Shown piece after piece: positions 13,130 through 22,475 of a stretch of DNA of 45,708 nucleotides. The stretch spans positions 1 to 45,708 of the forward strand of contig NZ_MPIN01000032.1 in NCBI RefSeq assembly GCF_001887355.1, given 5' to 3'. The notes beneath the pieces are model-generated. The model was not told the DNA's origin. It worked only from the letters and a program-made list of their open reading frames with translations, and did no database searches. A program made the translations under genes and the position numbers. This DNA comes from Cystobacter ferrugineus. Its GTDB lineage: Bacteria > Myxococcota > Myxococcia > Myxococcales > Myxococcaceae. Positions within the stretch are counted from its first letter, which is position 1; every line of letters begins with the position of its first letter.

Positions 13130-14605
13130 ATGTCGATATTGCGAGTCAATTTCAACTCCGGCTCCATTCCCCTCCTACTGCTGGCGCTGCTGGGGGCGTG
13201 TGGAGAGAGGGAGGTGGACACCGAGGCGCCTCGCATCACGCTCACCACACCGCGGGACGCGTCACGCGTGGCGCTCGCGCGCTTCCAGGTGGCGGGCACG
13301 GTGGAGGATGACTCGGGGCTCGCGGAGCTGAGCTGGCGGCTCAACGAGGACGAGCCGGTGGCGCTCGGCGCGGAGGGAGGGGAGCGCCAGGGGCTGGACT
13401 TCGAGCTCCAGCCGCGTCCGGGCCGCAACCTCCTGGTGGTGCACGCACGCGACACGCGGGGCAACGAGGCGGAGACCTCGGTGAGCTTCACCTTCGGCAA
13501 CCAGACGGGCGCGGGAGCGCTGCACGGCGGCGCGGTGCGCGACGGCATCCTCTATACCTGGGGACGCAACAACCGGGGGCAGCTCGGGCTCGGGAGCACC
13601 GCGGGCAGCAAGTCCCCGGTGAAGGTGGAGGGACTCGCGGACGTGGCCGCCATCGCCTTCGCCCAGAACAACTCCCTGGCGATTCAACGGGACGGCTCGG
13701 TGTGGACGTGGGGAGACAACGCGAGCGGCCAGCTCGGCCAGGCGGCCCCCGGCGCCTCCGACACGACGATGCGACGGGTGCCCACGCGCGTGCCCGGCAT
13801 CTCCGACGCGGTGGCCGCCGCGGTGGGCTACAGGCACATGCTGGTGCTGCACCGGGACGGGCACGTGTCCGCCTTCGGCGAGAACAACAACGGCCAGCTC
13901 GGCGACGGCACCACCACGGATCGGCACTTCCCCGTGCCCGTCCCCGGGCTCACCGACGTCGTCCGGGTCATCGGCGGCTCGCAGCACTCGGCCGCGGTGC
14001 GCCGCGACGGCACCGTCTGGGTGTGGGGCAACAATACCTACGGCAACCTCGGACTCGGCACCCAGGACGGCGAGTCCCACCCCACGCCCACGCGCGTGCC
14101 CGGCCTCACCGGCGTGGTGGACCTCGCCAACGGGCGCGACCACCTGCTCGCTCTGCACGAGGACGGCACGGTGTCCGCCTGGGGCCTCAACGCCAGCGGC
14201 CAGCTCGGCGATGGACAGGTGGGCGCGGAGGACCAGCGCAATAGCCCCGTCCGGGTCCAGGGCCTCACGGACGCCACGGACGTCTTCGCCCAGGGCACCA
14301 TGAGCTTCGCCCTCCGGCGCGATGGCACGCTGTGGGGCTGGGGCGAGAACGTCAATGGACAGCTCGGCTCGGGAGACACCACCCGGGCCTCCGTGCCCAC
14401 CACCCCCGTGCTGCTGCGCGTGGTGCCCCAGGAACCCCTCACCGGCCTGGACGACGTGAGCCCCGGCGCCACCCATGTCATCGCCCACCACCGGGACGGG
14501 CCGCTGTTCGCCTGGGGCTGGAGCCTGGAGGGCTCGCTGGGCGGTGGCCCGGACCTGTTGGAGCAATGGTCCTATCCCCTGCCCCATCAGGTGGTGTTGC
14601 CATGA
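13130..14605 (+). CDS. RCC1-repeat (seven-bladed propeller) lipoprotein with Ig-like N-terminal domain
   Basis: The product has 491 residues from the ATG at 13130, which places a signal peptide with lipobox LLGAC (Cys24) at the start; an upstream in-frame start at 13061 would bury it. Residues 30-125 form a bacterial Ig-like fold (DTEAPRITLTTPRDAS to DTRGNEAETSVSFTFG). After it come seven RCC1 repeats with the mark WGxNxxGQLG: YTWGRNNRGQLGLG, WTWGDNASGQLG, SAFGENNNGQLGDG, WVWGNNTYGNLGLG, SAWGLNASGQLGDG, WGWGENVNGQLGSG and FAWGWSLEGSLGGG. This gives a beta-propeller held on a membrane, probably the outer one (Gly at +2), as a binding or scaffold surface. It is coupled by ATGA to a paralogue and then to a di-heme enzyme. 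A weak promoter candidate (TTGCGC at 13091) precedes it. Confidence 0.85.
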   Translation: MSILRVNFNSGSIPLLLLALLGACGEREVDTEAPRITLTTPRDASRVALARFQVAGTVEDDSGLAELSWRLNEDEPVALGAEGGERQGLDFELQPRPGRNLLVVHARDTRGNEAETSVSFTFGNQTGAGALHGGAVRDGILYTWGRNNRGQLGLGSTAGSKSPVKVEGLADVAAIAFAQNNSLAIQRDGSVWTWGDNASGQLGQAAPGASDTTMRRVPTRVPGISDAVAAAVGYRHMLVLHRDGHVSAFGENNNGQLGDGTTTDRHFPVPVPGLTDVVRVIGGSQHSAAVRRDGTVWVWGNNTYGNLGLGTQDGESHPTPTRVPGLTGVVDLANGRDHLLALHEDGTVSAWGLNASGQLGDGQVGAEDQRNSPVRVQGLTDATDVFAQGTMSFALRRDGTLWGWGENVNGQLGSGDTTRASVPTTPVLLRVVPQEPLTGLDDVSPGATHVIAHHRDGPLFAWGWSLEGSLGGGPDLLEQWSYPLPHQVVLP

Positions 14606-16032
14606 GCCCACGAGCCGCCCGCCGCGCCGGAAGCCTGCTGCTCGCGCTGAGCGCCATCGCCTGTGGCCAGGAGCCCACGCCCCCGGCTCCGCCCGCGCCC
14701 GACACCCAGGCACCCCACGTGCGCATCCTCTCCCCCGCCGAGGGGCAGGACGTCGCCGCCTTCCAGGTACATGTCCGGGGAGCGCTCGAGGATGACCAGG
14801 GCGTGGTGCGCTCCTCCTGGTCCCTCAATGGCGCGCCTCCCGTGGACTTCACGCCCTCGGCGGTCTTCACCCTCGGAGGCCGCCCGCTGCCGGGCACCAA
14901 CCACCTGCGCGTGGAGGCCGTGGACGCGGCGGGCAACACGGGGGTGGCCGAGGTGCGCTTCTCGTGGGGCACCTCGCTCGCCGCGGGACTGTCGCACTCG
15001 GCGGCCCTGCGCGATGGCCAGCTCTTCACCTGGGGCGGCAATGACGCGGGGCAACTGGGACGCCCGGACGCCGGGAACGCGCCCCACCCCCTTCCCGTCC
15101 CGGGGCTCGCTCCGGTGCGCGCGGTGGTGGCCGGTCCCTCCTCGACCCTCGTCCTCGGGGAGGACGGCGGCGCATGGGCCTGGGGCACGCTGCCCTCGGG
15201 ACTCGTCCCGGCACGGCAGGCGCCCTCCACGCCCACCCGCGTGGAGAGTCCCGGCCCCGTGGTGGACGCGGCGCTCGGCACGAGCCATGCCCTGCTGCTG
15301 CTCGCCGACGGCACGGTGCTCGCGGTGGGGAGCAACACGGCGGGACAACTGGGGCTCGGCTCGACCGCGCCCGTGAAGGCCCCCACGCCCGTGCCCGGCC
15401 TGTCGGACATCGTCCGCGTGGCCGTGGGCACCGCGCACTCCGTGGCGCTGCGCCGCGATGGCACCGTCTTCACGTGGGGCGACAATGGCGATGGGCAGCT
15501 CGGCAACGGAGAGCTGGATGACGCGCCCCACCCCGAGCCCCTGGAGGTGGCGCACCTGGGCCACGTGGTGGACATCGCGTCGGGGAGGGATCACGTGCTG
15601 GCGCTCGGCGCGGATGGCCGCGTGCGGGCGTGGGGCCTGGGCATGTCGGGACAGCTCGGCCATGGCAGGAGCGGGATGCTCGGCAGCCGGGCCCAACCCG
15701 TGGAGGTGCTGGAGGTGACGGACGCGGTGGCCGTGTCCGCCCAGGCCAACGTCGGCTTCGCGCTCTCGGCCTCGGGGACGCTCTGGGCGTGGGGGCAGAA
15801 CTCCAACGCGCAGCTCGGGGACGGCACCCTCGCGGAGCGGCCGAGGCCCGTCCGGGTCCAGGGGCTCGGGCCCGCGCGCGCCATGACGGCGGCTCCCCTG
15901 CACACGCTCGCCTGGACCCGGGAAGGCCACTGCCTCGCCTGGGGCGCCAACCACGACGGACAGCTCGGCGCGAGCCTGCCCTCCGAAGGTTCTCCCCGCT
16001 CTCCCACTCCCCTCCCGGTGGTCTTCCCATGA
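14602..16032 (+). CDS. Second RCC1-repeat lipoprotein with Ig-like N-terminal domain
   Basis: The product has 476 residues and is a tandem paralogue of the gene before it. The signal peptide ends in a lipobox SAIAC (Cys21), followed by a short proline-rich linker. An Ig-like domain runs from DTQAPHVRILSPAEG to AAGNTGVAEVRFSWG. Repeats with WGxNxxGQLG follow: FTWGGNDAGQLG, WAWGTLPSGLVP (degenerate), LAVGSNTAGQLGLG, FTWGDNGDGQLGNG, RAWGLGMSGQLGHG, WAWGQNSNAQLGDG and LAWGANHDGQLGA. Blade two has lost the consensus, unlike in the first copy. The start overlaps the previous stop (ATGA), and the end overlaps the di-heme gene in the same way, so all three are translated together. The ligand is unknown. 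Confidence 0.85.
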   Translation: MSPRAARRAGSLLLALSAIACGQEPTPPAPPAPDTQAPHVRILSPAEGQDVAAFQVHVRGALEDDQGVVRSSWSLNGAPPVDFTPSAVFTLGGRPLPGTNHLRVEAVDAAGNTGVAEVRFSWGTSLAAGLSHSAALRDGQLFTWGGNDAGQLGRPDAGNAPHPLPVPGLAPVRAVVAGPSSTLVLGEDGGAWAWGTLPSGLVPARQAPSTPTRVESPGPVVDAALGTSHALLLLADGTVLAVGSNTAGQLGLGSTAPVKAPTPVPGLSDIVRVAVGTAHSVALRRDGTVFTWGDNGDGQLGNGELDDAPHPEPLEVAHLGHVVDIASGRDHVLALGADGRVRAWGLGMSGQLGHGRSGMLGSRAQPVEVLEVTDAVAVSAQANVGFALSASGTLWAWGQNSNAQLGDGTLAERPRPVRVQGLGPARAMTAAPLHTLAWTREGHCLAWGANHDGQLGASLPSEGSPRSPTPLPVVFP

Positions 16033-17447
16033 AACCCACGCACGCACTCGTCACCGCCGGCTGGGGTCTGCTCGCCGCGTGTGGCCCGACCTCGCGGGCA
16101 CCGGACGAGGACCCCAACCCGAGCCATGCGGTGGTGGAAGCCGGCGAGGAGCGGCCCGGAGGCGGAGCCACGGTCCAGGACACGAGCGCACAGGCCTTCT
16201 CGCGCCCCGCGCCCTCACTCCCCCTCGCACGGCTGTCCGCGTTCGGCGCGGGGGAAGCCCTGTTCGAGGCGGACTGGTTCGCGGCGCCCAACTCGAGGGA
16301 GGACCGCGATGGCCTCGGGCCGCTCTTCAACTCCGTGTCCTGCGAGGCGTGCCACTTCCAGAACGGACGCGGTGCCCCACCCCAGGGCGCCGAGCAGCCC
16401 ACGGTCTCGCTGCTCTTGCGCCTGAGCGTGCCCGGCGGGGGCGAGCATGGGGGGCCCCGGCCCGAGCCCACCTATGGGGATCAGCTCCAGACGCGGGCGA
16501 TCTCCGGAGTGCCCGCCGAGGGACGCGCCACGCTCACCTGGGAGGAGCGCTCGGGCACCTTCGCGGATGGAGAGCCCTGGACGTTGCGCGCGCCCATCTA
16601 TGTCCTCTCGCGGCTCGCCCACGGGCCGCTGGCCACGGACACGCGCCTCTCCCCGCGGGTGGCACAGCCGCTGGTGGGGCCGGGGTTGCTCGCGGCCGTG
16701 CCCGAGGAGCGCCTCCTCGAATGGGCGGATCCCGAGGACGCGGATGGAGACGGCATCTCCGGGCGGCCCAACCGGGTGTGGAGCGTGCGCCGGGGTCGGT
16801 GGGAGCCAGGCCGCTTCGGCTGGAAGGCCAACCAGCCCGACCTGGAGCAGCAGAACGCCGCGGCCATGAAGGGAGACCTCGGCATCACCTCGCCGCTCTT
16901 CCCCACCGAGTCCTGTACCGCCGCGCAGGCCACCTGCCTCTCGGCCGCCTCCGGCGGAGCCCCCGAGCTGGACGAGGGCAAGCTGGCCGCCCTCACCGCC
17001 TATACGGCCGCGCTCGCCGTCCCCGCCCGCCGCGGGCATGACCAGCCCCACGTACTCCAGGGCAAGGACGTCTTCCACCGCGTGGGCTGCGCCCGCTGCC
17101 ACCGGCCCTCGCTCGAGACGGGAGAGGTGGAAGGCCGCCCGGAGCTCTCCCACCAGCGGTTGTGGCCCTACTCGGACCTGCTCCTGCACGACCTGGGAGA
17201 TGCGCTCGCCGACGGCTACGACGACTTCCTCGCCACTGGCAACGAATGGCGCACGCCCCCGCTGTGGGGCCTCGGCCTGACGCGCACCGTCAGCGGCCAC
17301 ACGCGCCTGCTCCATGATGGCCGGGCCCGCACGGTGCTCGAGGCCATCCTCTGGCACGGCGGCGAGGCCCAGGCCGCCCGCGACGCGGTGCTCCGCCTGT
17401 CCCGCGCCGAGCGCGACGCCCTCCTCGCCTTCCTCGACTCGCTCTGA
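16029..17447 (+). CDS. Di-heme oxidoreductase (DHOR family), lipoprotein, copy A
   Basis: The product has 472 residues. The signal peptide has a lipobox LLAAC (Cys18). There are two c-type heme sites: CEACH at 105-109 and CARCH at 354-358. DADGDGISG (about 237-245) looks like a calcium-binding loop. GRFGWKANQP, GDLGITSPLFP and TPPLWGLGL are hallmarks of the DHOR family (often annotated as thiol oxidoreductase), which is distantly related to MauG and di-heme peroxidases and commonly found beside imelysins. It presumably does redox chemistry in the periplasm or at the cell surface; the substrate is unknown. It is coupled to the RCC1 lipoprotein upstream (ATGA) and ends 99 bp before the imelysin gene, with a promoter in the gap. 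Confidence 0.88.
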   Translation: MKPTHALVTAGWGLLAACGPTSRAPDEDPNPSHAVVEAGEERPGGGATVQDTSAQAFSRPAPSLPLARLSAFGAGEALFEADWFAAPNSREDRDGLGPLFNSVSCEACHFQNGRGAPPQGAEQPTVSLLLRLSVPGGGEHGGPRPEPTYGDQLQTRAISGVPAEGRATLTWEERSGTFADGEPWTLRAPIYVLSRLAHGPLATDTRLSPRVAQPLVGPGLLAAVPEERLLEWADPEDADGDGISGRPNRVWSVRRGRWEPGRFGWKANQPDLEQQNAAAMKGDLGITSPLFPTESCTAAQATCLSAASGGAPELDEGKLAALTAYTAALAVPARRGHDQPHVLQGKDVFHRVGCARCHRPSLETGEVEGRPELSHQRLWPYSDLLLHDLGDALADGYDDFLATGNEWRTPPLWGLGLTRTVSGHTRLLHDGRARTVLEAILWHGGEAQAARDAVLRLSRAERDALLAFLDSL

Positions 17448-17492: not shown

Positions 17493-17521
17493 TTGACAAT
17501 GATTAGCAAATTCATTACGAA
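17493..17521 (+). promoter_or_regulatory. Promoter overlapped by a Fur-box-like sequence
   Basis: In the gap before the imelysin gene there is a TTGACA at 17493-17498 and, after exactly 17 nt, TACGAA at 17516-17521, a good sigma-70-type promoter. Lying across it is GACAATGATTAGCAAATTC (17495-17513), which agrees with the 19-bp Fur consensus GATAATGATAATCATTATC at 13 positions, including the full GA-AATGAT core. The segment is strikingly AT-rich for this genome. Binding of Fur here would block the polymerase, so the genes downstream (imelysin, DHOR B, imelysin B, HTTM) are predicted to be switched on when iron is scarce. Confidence 0.65.
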
Positions 17522-17546: not shown

Positions 17547-18671
17547 ATGACGAAGCAGGGTTGGTTGGCATTGATGGCGACGGGCACGCTGCTCACCGCG
17601 GGCTGTGGCGCGGATGGGCCGCTGGAGGAGTCGCGCGCGCGGCCAGTGGTGGAGCGCTACGCGGCGCTGACGTACGAGAACTACACGGATGTGGTGACAC
17701 AGGCCCTGAGACTGCGCGAGGCGGTGGAGAGATTCCTGGAGCAGCCGAGCGAGGAGCGGCTGTCCACGGCCCGCTCGGCGTGGATCAACGCGCGCAGGGC
17801 CTATGGCCAGAGCGAGGCCTTCCGCTTCTACGGCGGCCCCATCGACGACGAGGACACCGGCCCCGAGGGGCAGATCAACGCCTGGCCGCTGGACGAGGCG
17901 TACATCGACGGCATCATCGACGGCCAGGAGCCGCTGAGCCAGGAGCTGATCACCTCGATGAACGAGCGCAATGGAGAGACGAACATCTCCTCGGGCTACC
18001 ACGCCATCGAGTTCCTGCTGTGGGGCAAGGACGAGAACGACACGGGCCCGGGCAACCGGCCCTACACGGACTTCGTCGACGGGATCACACCGTCCAACGC
18101 CGAGCGGCGCCGGCAGTACCTGAGCCTCGTGACGAAGCAGTTGATGGAGGACCTGGAGTCGGTGCGGGCGGCGTGGGCGCCCGGCCAGGACAACTACCGC
18201 AAGGCGTTCGTGGCCGAGGCTCCCAAGGAGGCCGTGCTGAAGATGCTCACCGGCCTGGGCAGCCTGAGCGGCGCGGAGCTGGCGGGCGAGCGCATGACGG
18301 TGGCCTACGACAACAAGGACCAGGAGAACGAGCACTCCTGCTTCAGCGACAATACGCACGCGGACCTGTACAACAACGCGCTGGGCATCCAGAACGTGTA
18401 CCTCGGGCGCTACGGCACCGCGGACGGCGTGGGACTCGACGAGCTGGTGGCCGCGGTGGATCCGAAACTGAACGAAGAGATGAAGCAGCGGCTGCAAGCC
18501 AGCCTCGACGCCATCCAGGCGATCCCCGCTCCGTTCGATCAGGCTATCCTCGGCAATGACAGCAGCCCGGGGCGGCAGAAGGTGAAGGCCGCCATCGACG
18601 CGCTGCGGGCGCAGACGGAGACGCTCGTCGACGTGGCCACCGCGCTCGGCATTCAACTCAACCTGGAGTGA
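17547..18671 (+). CDS. Imelysin family (M75/IrpA-like) lipoprotein
   Basis: The product has 374 residues from the ATG at 17547, which has GAGGGGG 7 nt upstream. A lipoprotein signal ends in LLTAGC (Cys20). The family signature is GYHAIEFLLWG at 150-160 (GxHxxE), and AWINARRAYGQSEAFRFYGGPID with NAWPLDEAYID at about 111-121 are also typical of the IrpA-type group. Imelysins are iron-regulated periplasmic or surface proteins thought to work in iron uptake; despite the M75 name, peptidase activity is doubtful. It is the first gene behind a Fur-box-like promoter and lies 6 bp before a second di-heme oxidoreductase. Confidence 0.92.
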   Translation: MTKQGWLALMATGTLLTAGCGADGPLEESRARPVVERYAALTYENYTDVVTQALRLREAVERFLEQPSEERLSTARSAWINARRAYGQSEAFRFYGGPIDDEDTGPEGQINAWPLDEAYIDGIIDGQEPLSQELITSMNERNGETNISSGYHAIEFLLWGKDENDTGPGNRPYTDFVDGITPSNAERRRQYLSLVTKQLMEDLESVRAAWAPGQDNYRKAFVAEAPKEAVLKMLTGLGSLSGAELAGERMTVAYDNKDQENEHSCFSDNTHADLYNNALGIQNVYLGRYGTADGVGLDELVAAVDPKLNEEMKQRLQASLDAIQAIPAPFDQAILGNDSSPGRQKVKAAIDALRAQTETLVDVATALGIQLNLE

Positions 18672-18677
18672 TCCGAC

Positions 18678-20050
<1,373 letters not shown>

Positions 20051-20054
<4 letters not shown>

Positions 20055-21151
20055 ACCGACTCTCGCGCCGTCTCTTGTCCGTCCCGCTCCTGCTGTCGCT
20101 GGCCCTCGCGGGCTGTGGGGACTCGCAGGGCACCACCCTGCGCTCGGCCTTCCTCGGGGAGCTGGCCGAGAAGACCATCCTGCCCACGTACCGGGACTTC
20201 GACACGCGCACGGGCACGCTCGCCACCGCGCTCACGGAACTGGAGCGCACGCCCACCGAGGCCACGCTCGCCACGGCCCAGGCCGCGTGGCGCTCCGTGC
20301 GCGAGCCCTGGGGCATCCAGGAGGCGCTCCACATCGGCCCCTCGGAGGAGCTGCACACGGGCGCCGCGGTGGATCAGGTCCCGTCGACGAGCGGCATCGA
20401 CAGCCTGCTCGCGGGCACGACGCCGCTGACCGAGCAGAGCGTCGGGGAGCTGGGCGCCAACCGCAAGGGCATGATGGCCATGGAGTACGTGCTCTTCGAC
20501 TCGCAGGCGGGCAACGCGGCGGTGCTCACGCGGCTCACCGAGGGTGACGCCGGAGCGCGCCGCCGGGCCTACCTGCGGGCGCTCGGGGCCGTGCTGCACA
20601 CCGACGCGGTGGAGGTCCACGGCGAGTGGGAGCCGGACCAGGGCAACTACGTCGCGCAGCTCGCGAGCGCGGGCACCAGCGGCAGCAGGTACGCCACCCA
20701 GAAGGAGGCGGTGGACGAGATCGTCAATCGCCTCATCGGCTCGGTGGAGGTGGCGGAGCTCAAGCTGTCCAAGCCGCTCGGGTTCGAGACCGGGGGCACC
20801 GTGCGGCCCGAGGAGGAGGAGGCACGGCGCAGCGACAACTCGCTCGCGGACCTGACGCACGCGCTCGTGGGCATGGAGCGGCTGTGGCTCGGGCCGGAGG
20901 GCAACGGAGGGCTGTCGCGCGTGGTGGCCGCCACCAACAAGACCCTGGACACGACGGTGCGGGGGGAGCTCGCGGCGGTGCGCACGGCGCTCGAGTCCAT
21001 TCCGCCCCCGCTGCGCACGGCCCTGCTTCAGAACCGCGAGTCGGTGGAGGCCGCCCGCGCCGCGCTCTCCAACCTGCGCGCCACGCTCGCCTCGGAGGTG
21101 GTGGCCAACCTGGGCGTGACGCTCAAGTTCAACGACAACGATGGGGATTGA
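20051..21151 (+). CDS. Second imelysin family lipoprotein (non-histidine signature)
   Basis: The product has 366 residues from a GTG overlapping the previous stop (GTGA). The signal peptide ends in a lipobox LALAGC (Cys22). The fold follows the imelysin plan: a helical repeat with AWRSVREPWGIQEALHIGP, then GMMAMEYVLFD at 140-150 in the place of the GxHxxEFLLWG signature. The histidine is replaced by methionine, which puts it in the other imelysin subgroup (pattern GxPALEYLLF) that usually accompanies an IrpA-type protein. Together the two may form two parts of one iron-linked system. The 3' end overlaps the HTTM gene by 11 bp. Confidence 0.85.
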
Positions 21152-22475
21152 GGCCGCGCCTGGCGTGCGCGAGCGGCTCGGCGCGGCGCTCTTCGCGCCC
21201 GTGGATCGCGCCTCGCTCGTGGCGTGGCGAGTCCTCTTCGGGCTGCTGATGACCATCGCCGTCGCGCGCTTCTTCGCGTACGGGTGGATTGAGGAGCACT
21301 ACCTCGCGCCCCGGGTGCTCTTCCCCTTCGCGGGGCTGGAGTGGATCCGCCCCTGGCCGGGCGTGGGCATGTACGTCCACTTCGTGCTGATGGGCCTGGG
21401 GGCGCTGGGGATTGCCTTCGGCGTCGCGTACCGGCTGAGCGCGCTCACGTTCGTGCTCACCTTCACGTACGCGCACCTCATCGACCGGACGTACTACCTC
21501 AACCACTACTACTTCATCTCGCTGGTGGGGCTGGTGATGGTGGTGCTGCCCCTGGACCGGAAGGGCCCCGTGCCCGCGTGGTGGCTGTGGCTGCTTCGGG
21601 CGCAGGTGGGCCTCGTGTATGTCTTTGGCGGGGTGGCCAAGCTCAAGCGGGACTGGCTCGTGCATGCCCAGCCATTGAAGATCTGGCTCTCGGCGAGTAC
21701 GGACCTGCCGGTGCTCGGGCGGTTCTTCGAGCTGCCCTGGGCCCCGCATGCCTTCAGCATCGCCGGCGCGGTGTTCGACCTGGGCGTGGTGCCCGCGCTG
21801 CTGTGGCGGCGCACGCGCGGACCGGCCTTCGTGGCGGTGGTCACCTTCCATGTCATCACCCGGCTGCTCTTCCCCATCGGCATGTTCCCGTGGGTGATGA
21901 TCTCCGGCGCGCTGCTCTTCTTCCCTCCGGACTGGCCGCGGCGGCTCGGGGCCTGGCTGCGGCGGCTCCCCGCGTCGCTCACGCCCCCGACGGCGCTCCC
22001 CGCCTTCCGCGCATCGTGGACGGGCCCCGTGCTGGCCGCGGTGTTTCTCGGCGTGCAGGTGCTGCTGCCCCTGCGCCACCTGCTCTACCCGGGCGACGTG
22101 ATGTGGACGGAGGAGGGCTTCCGCTTCTCGTGGAACGTGATGCTGATGGAGAAGGACGGCATGGCGGAGTTCCGCGTCAGCGAGCCCGCCACGGGCCAGT
22201 GGTGGGTGGTGTCCCCGGGCAGGTACCTCGCGCCCTACCAGGTGAAGATGATGGCCACGCAGCCAGACATGCTGCTGACGTTCGCGCACTACCTGGCGCG
22301 CGACTTCGCCGAGCGGGGCCACCCGGGCGTGGAGGTGCGCGTCAACGCCTTCGCGAGCCTCAACGGCAGGCCCCGGCAACGGCTCGTGGACCCCACGGTG
22401 GACCTGGCCCGGGTGAGCCCCTGGGACAGCGTGAGCGCGTGGGTGTTGCCCTTCCAGGACGTGGAGCCGCCCTGA
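21141..22475 (+). CDS. HTTM domain (vitamin K-dependent gamma-carboxylase-like) membrane protein
   Basis: The product has 444 residues. The N-terminal two thirds are hydrophobic, with several membrane helices (first at about residues 28-46), including DRTYYLNHYYFISLVGLVMVVLPLDR, VGLVYVFGGVAKLKRDWLVHAQPL and FHVITRLLFPIGMFPWVMISGALLFFP. This is the HTTM pattern shared with vitamin K-dependent gamma-carboxylases. The last 140 residues form a soluble part (MWTEEGFRFSWNVMLMEKDGMAEFRV and on). Bacterial members have no settled function. Here the gene overlaps the imelysin gene by 11 bp, which ties it to the iron-responsive operon, where it may modify or help handle the lipoproteins. Confidence 0.85.
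   Translation: MGIEAAPGVRERLGAALFAPVDRASLVAWRVLFGLLMTIAVARFFAYGWIEEHYLAPRVLFPFAGLEWIRPWPGVGMYVHFVLMGLGALGIAFGVAYRLSALTFVLTFTYAHLIDRTYYLNHYYFISLVGLVMVVLPLDRKGPVPAWWLWLLRAQVGLVYVFGGVAKLKRDWLVHAQPLKIWLSASTDLPVLGRFFELPWAPHAFSIAGAVFDLGVVPALLWRRTRGPAFVAVVTFHVITRLLFPIGMFPWVMISGALLFFPPDWPRRLGAWLRRLPASLTPPTALPAFRASWTGPVLAAVFLGVQVLLPLRHLLYPGDVMWTEEGFRFSWNVMLMEKDGMAEFRVSEPATGQWWVVSPGRYLAPYQVKMMATQPDMLLTFAHYLARDFAERGHPGVEVRVNAFASLNGRPRQRLVDPTVDLARVSPWDSVSAWVLPFQDVEPP

Follow-up and report, generated by a model that had tools for sequence, protein, structure and literature searches.

What ties genes for RCC1-repeat lipoproteins to the gene for a di-heme oxidoreductase (DHOR) in the myxobacterium Cystobacter ferrugineus, and do their products act together? 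The question is raised by contig NZ_MPIN01000032.1 of RefSeq assembly GCF_001887355.1, whose positions 1 to 45,708 on the forward strand, the whole stretch of DNA analysed, are called the window below; it is contig C32 of a genome of 12.05 Mb. There, two RCC1 genes, RCC1a and RCC1b, precede a DHOR gene, DHOR A. An earlier note, made from the sequence alone, had described these genes and the two ATGA overlaps that join them; the coordinates, the frames and both overlaps are borne out by the sequence. On balance, RCC1a and DHOR A probably form a dedicated exported redox complex, the explanation that best accounts for the whole of the evidence. The features concerned are the following.

13130..14605, forward strand: RCC1a, 491 residues, with a lipobox-like LLGAC, an N-terminal beta domain, a seven-bladed RCC1 propeller and a terminal WGW...WSY signature.
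14602..14605, forward strand: ATGA start/stop overlap of RCC1a and RCC1b, seen in the sequence.
14602..16032, forward strand: RCC1b, a paralogue of 476 residues with a lipobox-like SAIAC and a degenerate blade two, lacking the WGW/WSY signature.
16029..16032, forward strand: ATGA start/stop overlap of RCC1b and DHOR A, seen in the sequence.
16029..17447, forward strand: DHOR A, a lipoprotein-like di-heme oxidoreductase (PF06537) with CxxCH motifs at residues 105-109 and 354-358 and a predicted fold like that of MauG and bacterial cytochrome c peroxidase (bCcP).

DHOR A was searched for in 195 Myxococcota genomes, with the best 8 candidates per genome scored, so that weaker matches may be missed. 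Thirty-eight DHORs of at least 60% identity, that of the window included, constitute what we call the A clade; they occur one per genome in seven genera of a single family, and the next sequences reach at most 58%. The surroundings of each of the 38, as whole regions or as flanks, were inspected, genes in fetched regions being called by a custom script that gives approximate gene starts, and one locus (G122) lies at a contig end, leaving 37 that could be assessed. An RCC1 gene was found directly upstream and on the same strand in 35 of these 37 loci, the window counted. At 33 of the 35 junctions, the RCC1 stop codon is overlapped over four bases by a start codon in the DHOR frame (ATG, GTG or TTG), 10 times as ATGA and 23 times as GTGA or TTGA, while in G126 and G129 the first DHOR start lies 8 bases behind the RCC1 stop. 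The overlap is conserved better than the identity of the start codon. One of four Shine-Dalgarno-like 4-mers precedes the DHOR start at only 10 of the 35 junctions and none does at the other 25, which fits the translational coupling that had been proposed from the overlaps in the window. A fixed protein ratio had been proposed as well; start/stop overlaps by themselves do not yield a 1:1 ratio.

The pair stays together, beyond what chance would give, in differing surroundings. It lies beside an imelysin operon in the window's genus, chemotaxis-type genes adjoin it in g14, g15 and many g23 genomes, an efflux-type gene is near it in g17 (neighbours judged by reading), and g8 and g26 carry it in yet other locations. 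Outside the window's genus, the stretches read on either side of A-clade units yielded no imelysin match. Searches from the RCC1 side, again limited to the best 8 candidates per genome, gave 42 matches at E<=1e-90, of which 35 stand beside A-clade DHORs, one belongs to a fusion and one to a pair in G117; four are unlinked (G138, G151 and second copies in G133 and G030) and one, in G123, is at a contig end. RCC1 genes scattered with no tie to DHOR, an outcome that the earlier note had named as damaging to its case, are with these exceptions rejected as a description of the data. The RCC1a and DHOR A trees give the same genus groups, and the tie is old.

A relative from outside the family provides a different line of evidence. 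In G161, one open frame comprises a lipobox, an (EP)n linker, an N-terminal beta domain, RCC1 repeats and a DHOR, with both the RCC1 and the DHOR parts above their Pfam cut-offs and only one lipobox. At the junction, the mature DHOR part begins where the propeller ends, and the signal peptide that a DHOR would otherwise carry is missing. The DHOR of this fusion is sister to the 38 A-clade DHORs (100/97). Finding two proteins fused in nature has long served as a hint that they act as one body; this fusion was seen in one genome only. The pair in G117 is more distant and unfused, and has a four-base overlap. A structural model of the fusion confirmed the propeller, the nearest structure being UVR8, which shares the fold of the propeller half, as does BLIP-II; neither protein is known as a partner of a heme enzyme.

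Which of the two RCC1 proteins would be the partner? In midpoint-rooted trees, RCC1a and RCC1b form two clades that split before genera g1 and g26 separated, and in this sample RCC1b was found only in those two genera (G000, G029, G045, G011; G119, G126, G129 and, near a contig end, G123). The last blade of RCC1a reads WGW..G(S/T)(L/V)G and is followed near the end of the protein by W(S/A/T)(Y/F) in 35 of 35 sequences (34 linked genes plus the fusion; the gene of G057, being split, was excluded), whereas the last-blade pattern, W464 and W480 are all missing from the seven RCC1b proteins. Among 12 other RCC1 frames, on which the full pattern was not scored, WGW occurs in three, always within an ordinary WGWG repeat motif. 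The degenerate blade two noticed earlier in the second copy recurs in all seven aligned RCC1b sequences from two genera: RCC1a N197, the Asn of the motif, is Leu in 7/7, and Q201 is replaced in 6/7. Separate clades, together with a signature kept in one copy and lost in the other, bear out the suggestion that the paralogues have split roles. Because the terminal aromatic signature is present throughout RCC1a and in none of the RCC1b proteins, RCC1a is the better candidate and the likely partner of DHOR A, and RCC1b is likely an old side branch.

Both proteins qualify as RCC1 repeat propellers by Pfam. RCC1a has seven strict repeat motifs and six Pfam RCC1 stretches (230.7 bits, cut-off 21.7); RCC1b, 40% identical to it, has four strict motifs and five stretches (200.9 bits, same cut-off). 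An Ig-like domain had been assigned to both; Pfam gives a weak Big_7 match in RCC1b (22.1 bits, cut-off 24.1) and lists no Ig-like domain in RCC1a at E 0.001. In the model of the fused relative, six strands precede the propeller, mostly at high confidence, and an Ig-like N-terminal domain is plausible for the RCC1 proteins on that basis. All three proteins of the unit start with lipoprotein-like signals, as read from their translations. In NCBIfam, the RCC1 and DHOR proteins match no family above its cut-off. The source genome contains 55 RCC1 matches.

DHOR A scores 314.3 bits for PF06537 (cut-off 22), and the residues of its two CxxCH motifs, C105/C108/H109 and C354/C357/H358, are invariant in 37 aligned rows. 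Sequence searches against solved structures gave cytochrome pieces and weak matches only. The predicted structure (predicted local distance difference test, pLDDT, 87; predicted template-modelling score, pTM, 0.87) was compared with known folds by VIA-align, which placed the gamma subunit of hydrazine synthase (5c2v_C) among the top matches and MauG (3svw_B) beside it, both at Z 14.6; the MauG alignment covers 249 residues at a root-mean-square deviation of 3.7. Cytochrome c peroxidases reach Z 14.5, and a MauG-like copper-homeostasis protein, 6e1c, which we take to be MbnH, gives Z 13.4. Foldseek, less clear than VIA-align, returned one match at E<=0.001 and one further believable one. The model thus gives DHOR A a MauG/cytochrome c peroxidase fold.

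Possible regulation of the unit is indicated by sequences resembling a binding site of the Fur family. Two occur in the window.

13135..13153, forward strand: Fur-box-like sequence overlapping the first codons of RCC1a, 13/19 to an assumed consensus.
17495..17513, forward strand: Fur-box-like sequence, by consensus score, preceding the imelysin operon, a separate unit.

A score of at least 12 of 19 is reached near the start in 29 of 34 RCC1a units (33 from A-clade loci, one from the fusion), compared with 17 of 522 control genes. G014 and G145, in which the script found no lipobox, were left out of this scoring, and a looser scan gave them scores of 10 and 14. When gene starts were taken automatically, as for the control, 25 of 32 RCC1-labelled and 11 of 13 imelysin-labelled genes reached 12. 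Genes of the Fur family lie near the unit in both loci checked (L043 and L046). These sequences point to a likely Fur-family regulator of the unit, with iron or oxidative stress as the probable trigger; another member of the family, such as PerR, could give a similar box. In the window's genus (13130-13160 in the window), the Fur-box-like sequence itself codes for the first residues of the RCC1a signal peptide (ILRVNF), and in g17 (L051, L054) a similar reading precedes a second Met.

These observations suggest a model in which iron limitation or oxidative stress would cause a Fur-family repressor to leave the box at the RCC1a start, so that a single message could be read. Ribosomes finishing the RCC1 gene just upstream would do most of the translation of DHOR A, and RCC1a and DHOR A would both be exported as lipoproteins. 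The seven-bladed RCC1a propeller may then dock on the di-heme enzyme, probably through the last blade and the C-terminal tail that bear the conserved WGW...W(S/A/T)(Y/F). RCC1a would serve as a scaffold, as a substrate or as a platform for a redox partner, taking the position of the imelysin of ordinary DHOR operons. RCC1b would be a duplicate of old standing that survives in two genera, has lost the signature and a blade motif, and has another job.

Several observations weigh against this model. In the window itself, it is RCC1b and not RCC1a that is directly coupled to DHOR A. Two genomes that are sisters in the DHOR tree, G138 and G151, have DHOR A alone and the RCC1a gene elsewhere, and the RCC1a gene of G057 (L052:7111-8645) is broken across two frames beside an intact DHOR A, either as a pseudogene or through a sequencing error. 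The RCC1a and DHOR A trees disagree on the branching of g26 and g8. The fusion model has a pTM of 0.55 with much of its DHOR half at low confidence, and does not inform the interface. As to regulation, the Fur consensus was an assumed one and the threshold of 12 was chosen after the scores had been seen; the genomes are related, so that a p-value for the box would overstate an enrichment that is strong but not independent. The five units that miss the threshold are those of the five g8 genomes, G014 also has no box, and the position of the window's box over the first RCC1a codons is an odd one for an operator.

In the RCC1a tree, the orphan RCC1a genes of G138 and G151 group near other g23 copies, unlike the position of their DHORs, so that these genomes have probably lost the linked copy and retained a different one. 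Both orphans keep the terminal signature, and they and the two lone DHORs are all accompanied by box-like sequence with scores of 12-13.

Several known systems resemble the unit in part. The iron-regulated imelysin-DHOR operons of the IrpA/ICMP/LruB kind use the same enzyme family, which is also known as DUF1111, with a gene for an exported partner upstream, but the A unit carries an RCC1 propeller and no imelysin. DUF1111 genes are described in imelysin gene contexts (PMC3143127). A similar pair is reported in Leptospira interrogans, where the RCC1-repeat gene LIMLP_07150 is directly upstream of LIMLP_07145, a 'thiol oxidoreductase' with two cytochrome c domains, in a predicted bicistronic unit; both are induced by lethal 1 mM H2O2 (log2 fold changes of about 5 and 2.2), and a second such oxidoreductase gene lies between two imelysins in LIMLP_14170-14180 (PMC7567364). 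In a further study, this imelysin set is up in a perRA perRB double mutant (PMC8638851). The text consulted on the RCC1-oxidoreductase pair draws no conclusion about the two genes together. The Leptospira pair has five reported RCC1 domains, unlike RCC1a, and its likeness to the A clade is one of published description; by analogy, the Leptospira sets look like the window's two units in a distant phylum. Since the Leptospira pair is peroxide-induced, peroxide is as likely a signal for the A unit as iron. Apart from Leptospira, no report of an RCC1-DHOR pair was found in the literature searched, which largely excluded subscription papers and was seen in part.

The strongest alternative keeps the partnership and removes the chemistry from RCC1a: DHOR A would be a peroxidase, and RCC1a a structural helper that positions it at the membrane or at an electron donor. 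We regard this as possible, though clearly less probable than the dedicated redox complex. A precedent is hydrazine synthase, in which a cofactor-less seven-bladed propeller (beta) is joined to a MauG-like di-heme subunit (gamma) (PMC12758564, PMC12607021); its biology is different from that of the RCC1-DHOR pair, and, judged by reading, none of the genes called next to the A unit looked like an alpha-type subunit. Peroxide induction of the similar Leptospira pair (PMC7567364) is also in keeping with a peroxidase. On the other hand, the lipobox of DHOR A makes an anchor needless, and the strict aromatic signature is left unexplained unless it is a docking site.

Less probable still, and in our judgement unlikely, is that DHOR A acts on RCC1a as its protein substrate and would oxidise at least one aromatic residue in the propeller (the Trp464, Trp480 region), making a metal-binding or redox site. 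MauG oxidises residues of methylamine dehydrogenase, and the MauG-type fold of the DHOR A model, with MauG and 6e1c among its matches, together with the presence of W464 and W480 in 35/35 RCC1a and 0/7 RCC1b, would accord with such a role. A further analogy is the methanotroph CorA-CorB / MopE-SACCP system, a metal-repressed surface protein with a di-heme peroxidase of the bCcP/MauG kind; CorA is co-transcribed with CorB, which is proposed to convert a CorA Trp to kynurenine (PMC3912023). The partner there is no RCC1 protein, however, the metal is copper instead of iron, and Trp oxidation is a feature of CorA. The conserved Trp residues may equally be structural or serve in docking, and the fused form would have to modify itself. 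A broader version, that DHORs are partner-directed, each clade with a co-encoded exported client, be it imelysin, RCC1a or the third family of about 270 residues upstream of clade-C DHORs described below, and that the A-clade enzyme builds an oxidised aromatic cofactor in the last RCC1 blade, we put forward as a speculation with somewhat less in its favour; if true, it would make RCC1a a new metal- or redox-active propeller protein.

That the gene order is merely inherited and the proteins function apart is improbable. The unlinking in G138 and G151, where neither kind of gene was lost, is what such hitch-hiking would allow, but the pair stays together while its neighbourhood differs between genera, an RCC1-DHOR fusion exists, and boxes accompany both genes after unlinking. 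The dedicated complex of RCC1a and DHOR A remains the reading that we prefer.

How did the A unit come to lie beside a second DHOR gene? Downstream of it are the following.

17547..22475, forward strand: neighbouring operon outside the pair, encoding imelysin, DHOR B, imelysin and an HTTM/VKGC-like protein.
17547-18671, forward strand: imelysin (Pfam).
18678-20054, forward strand: DHOR B (Pfam).
20051-21151, forward strand: imelysin (Pfam).
21141-22475, forward strand: HTTM/VKGC-like (Pfam).

The DHOR of the A unit has RCC1 genes in its operon instead of an imelysin, while the adjoining B operon has the imelysin expected of imelysin-DHOR operons. DHOR A does resemble DHOR B, as the earlier note had observed: the two are 55% identical, both are DHORs, and each has two CxxCH motifs. 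The other outcome that the note had named as damaging, DHOR A and B being unrelated, did not arise either. The DHOR tree nevertheless separates the A from the B genes, which join a clade of imelysin-linked DHORs from other families (14 rows, 94/96), and G161 holds both a B-like DHOR and the fused A-type DHOR. The note's further proposal, a local duplication of DHOR B that then gained the RCC1 pair, has in its favour the identity and the adjacency of the two genes, but can be set aside as scarcely credible, since forcing A and B of the window's genus together costs 186.6 log-likelihood units (approximately unbiased (AU) test, p 9e-10, on this sampling), and A-clade DHORs with an upstream RCC1 gene occur at other loci in six further genera.

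The g8 genomes suggest what happened instead. A phosphoglycerate-mutase gene and the imelysin-DHOR B operon stand side by side in G007 and G028 and with one or two other genes between them in G057 and G051, and the A unit is at this place in none of the five g8 genomes (these four and G044, in which the spacing is unresolved). Because g8 has this arrangement without the A unit, the A unit most simply moved next to B in the window's genus. It is likely that the A clade swapped an imelysin for the RCC1 propeller.

A possible third type of DHOR partner is seen in clade C. For 14 of 15 clade-C DHORs read (in loci L061-L069, L071, L151, L152), a related, exported-looking protein of 245-294 residues is encoded 70-256 bases upstream, and two of these proteins, when scanned, matched no Pfam family at E 0.01. 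This third upstream family suggests that DHOR clades may generally have their own exported client. The source genome also encodes three long DHORs (686-735 residues as called) at C22:43071, C6:67094 and C17:33822 (L075-L077), which form with one of G057 a separate deep clade; the sequence read around them gave neither an RCC1 nor an imelysin match. Among 80 DHOR loci listed from a collection of 84,980 species, which are no fair sample of DHORs, an imelysin is near the DHOR in 77 and RCC1 in two, those of Hyalangium versicolor and Archangium lansinium.

There is no settled role for DHOR/DUF1111 enzymes beside imelysins, and an RCC1-paired clade with a fusion and a signature offers a direct way to ask what their target is. 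It likewise connects bacterial RCC1 lipoproteins with a specific redox partner and with a probable regulator, and gives a context to the peroxide-induced RCC1/di-heme pair that the Leptospira work reports in passing.

Some smaller features of these loci deserve mention. In G030 (L156:5927-9528), two further RCC1 genes adjoin each other convergently; one is a diverged relative of RCC1a without the box or the full signature, and the region has no DHOR match. In G011, the phosphoglycerate mutase gene and RCC1a are separated by a gene like those of tannase and feruloyl esterase (L040:14692-16209), which is absent from the other three genomes of the genus read. The first imelysin of the window's B operon resembles Leptospira LruB in NCBIfam, far under the cut-off (149.8 of 850 bits). 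The gene that follows imelysin-DHOR-imelysin (21141-22475) is like HTTM and vitamin-K-dependent gamma-carboxylase, a match also present in 9 of the 80 DHOR loci listed.

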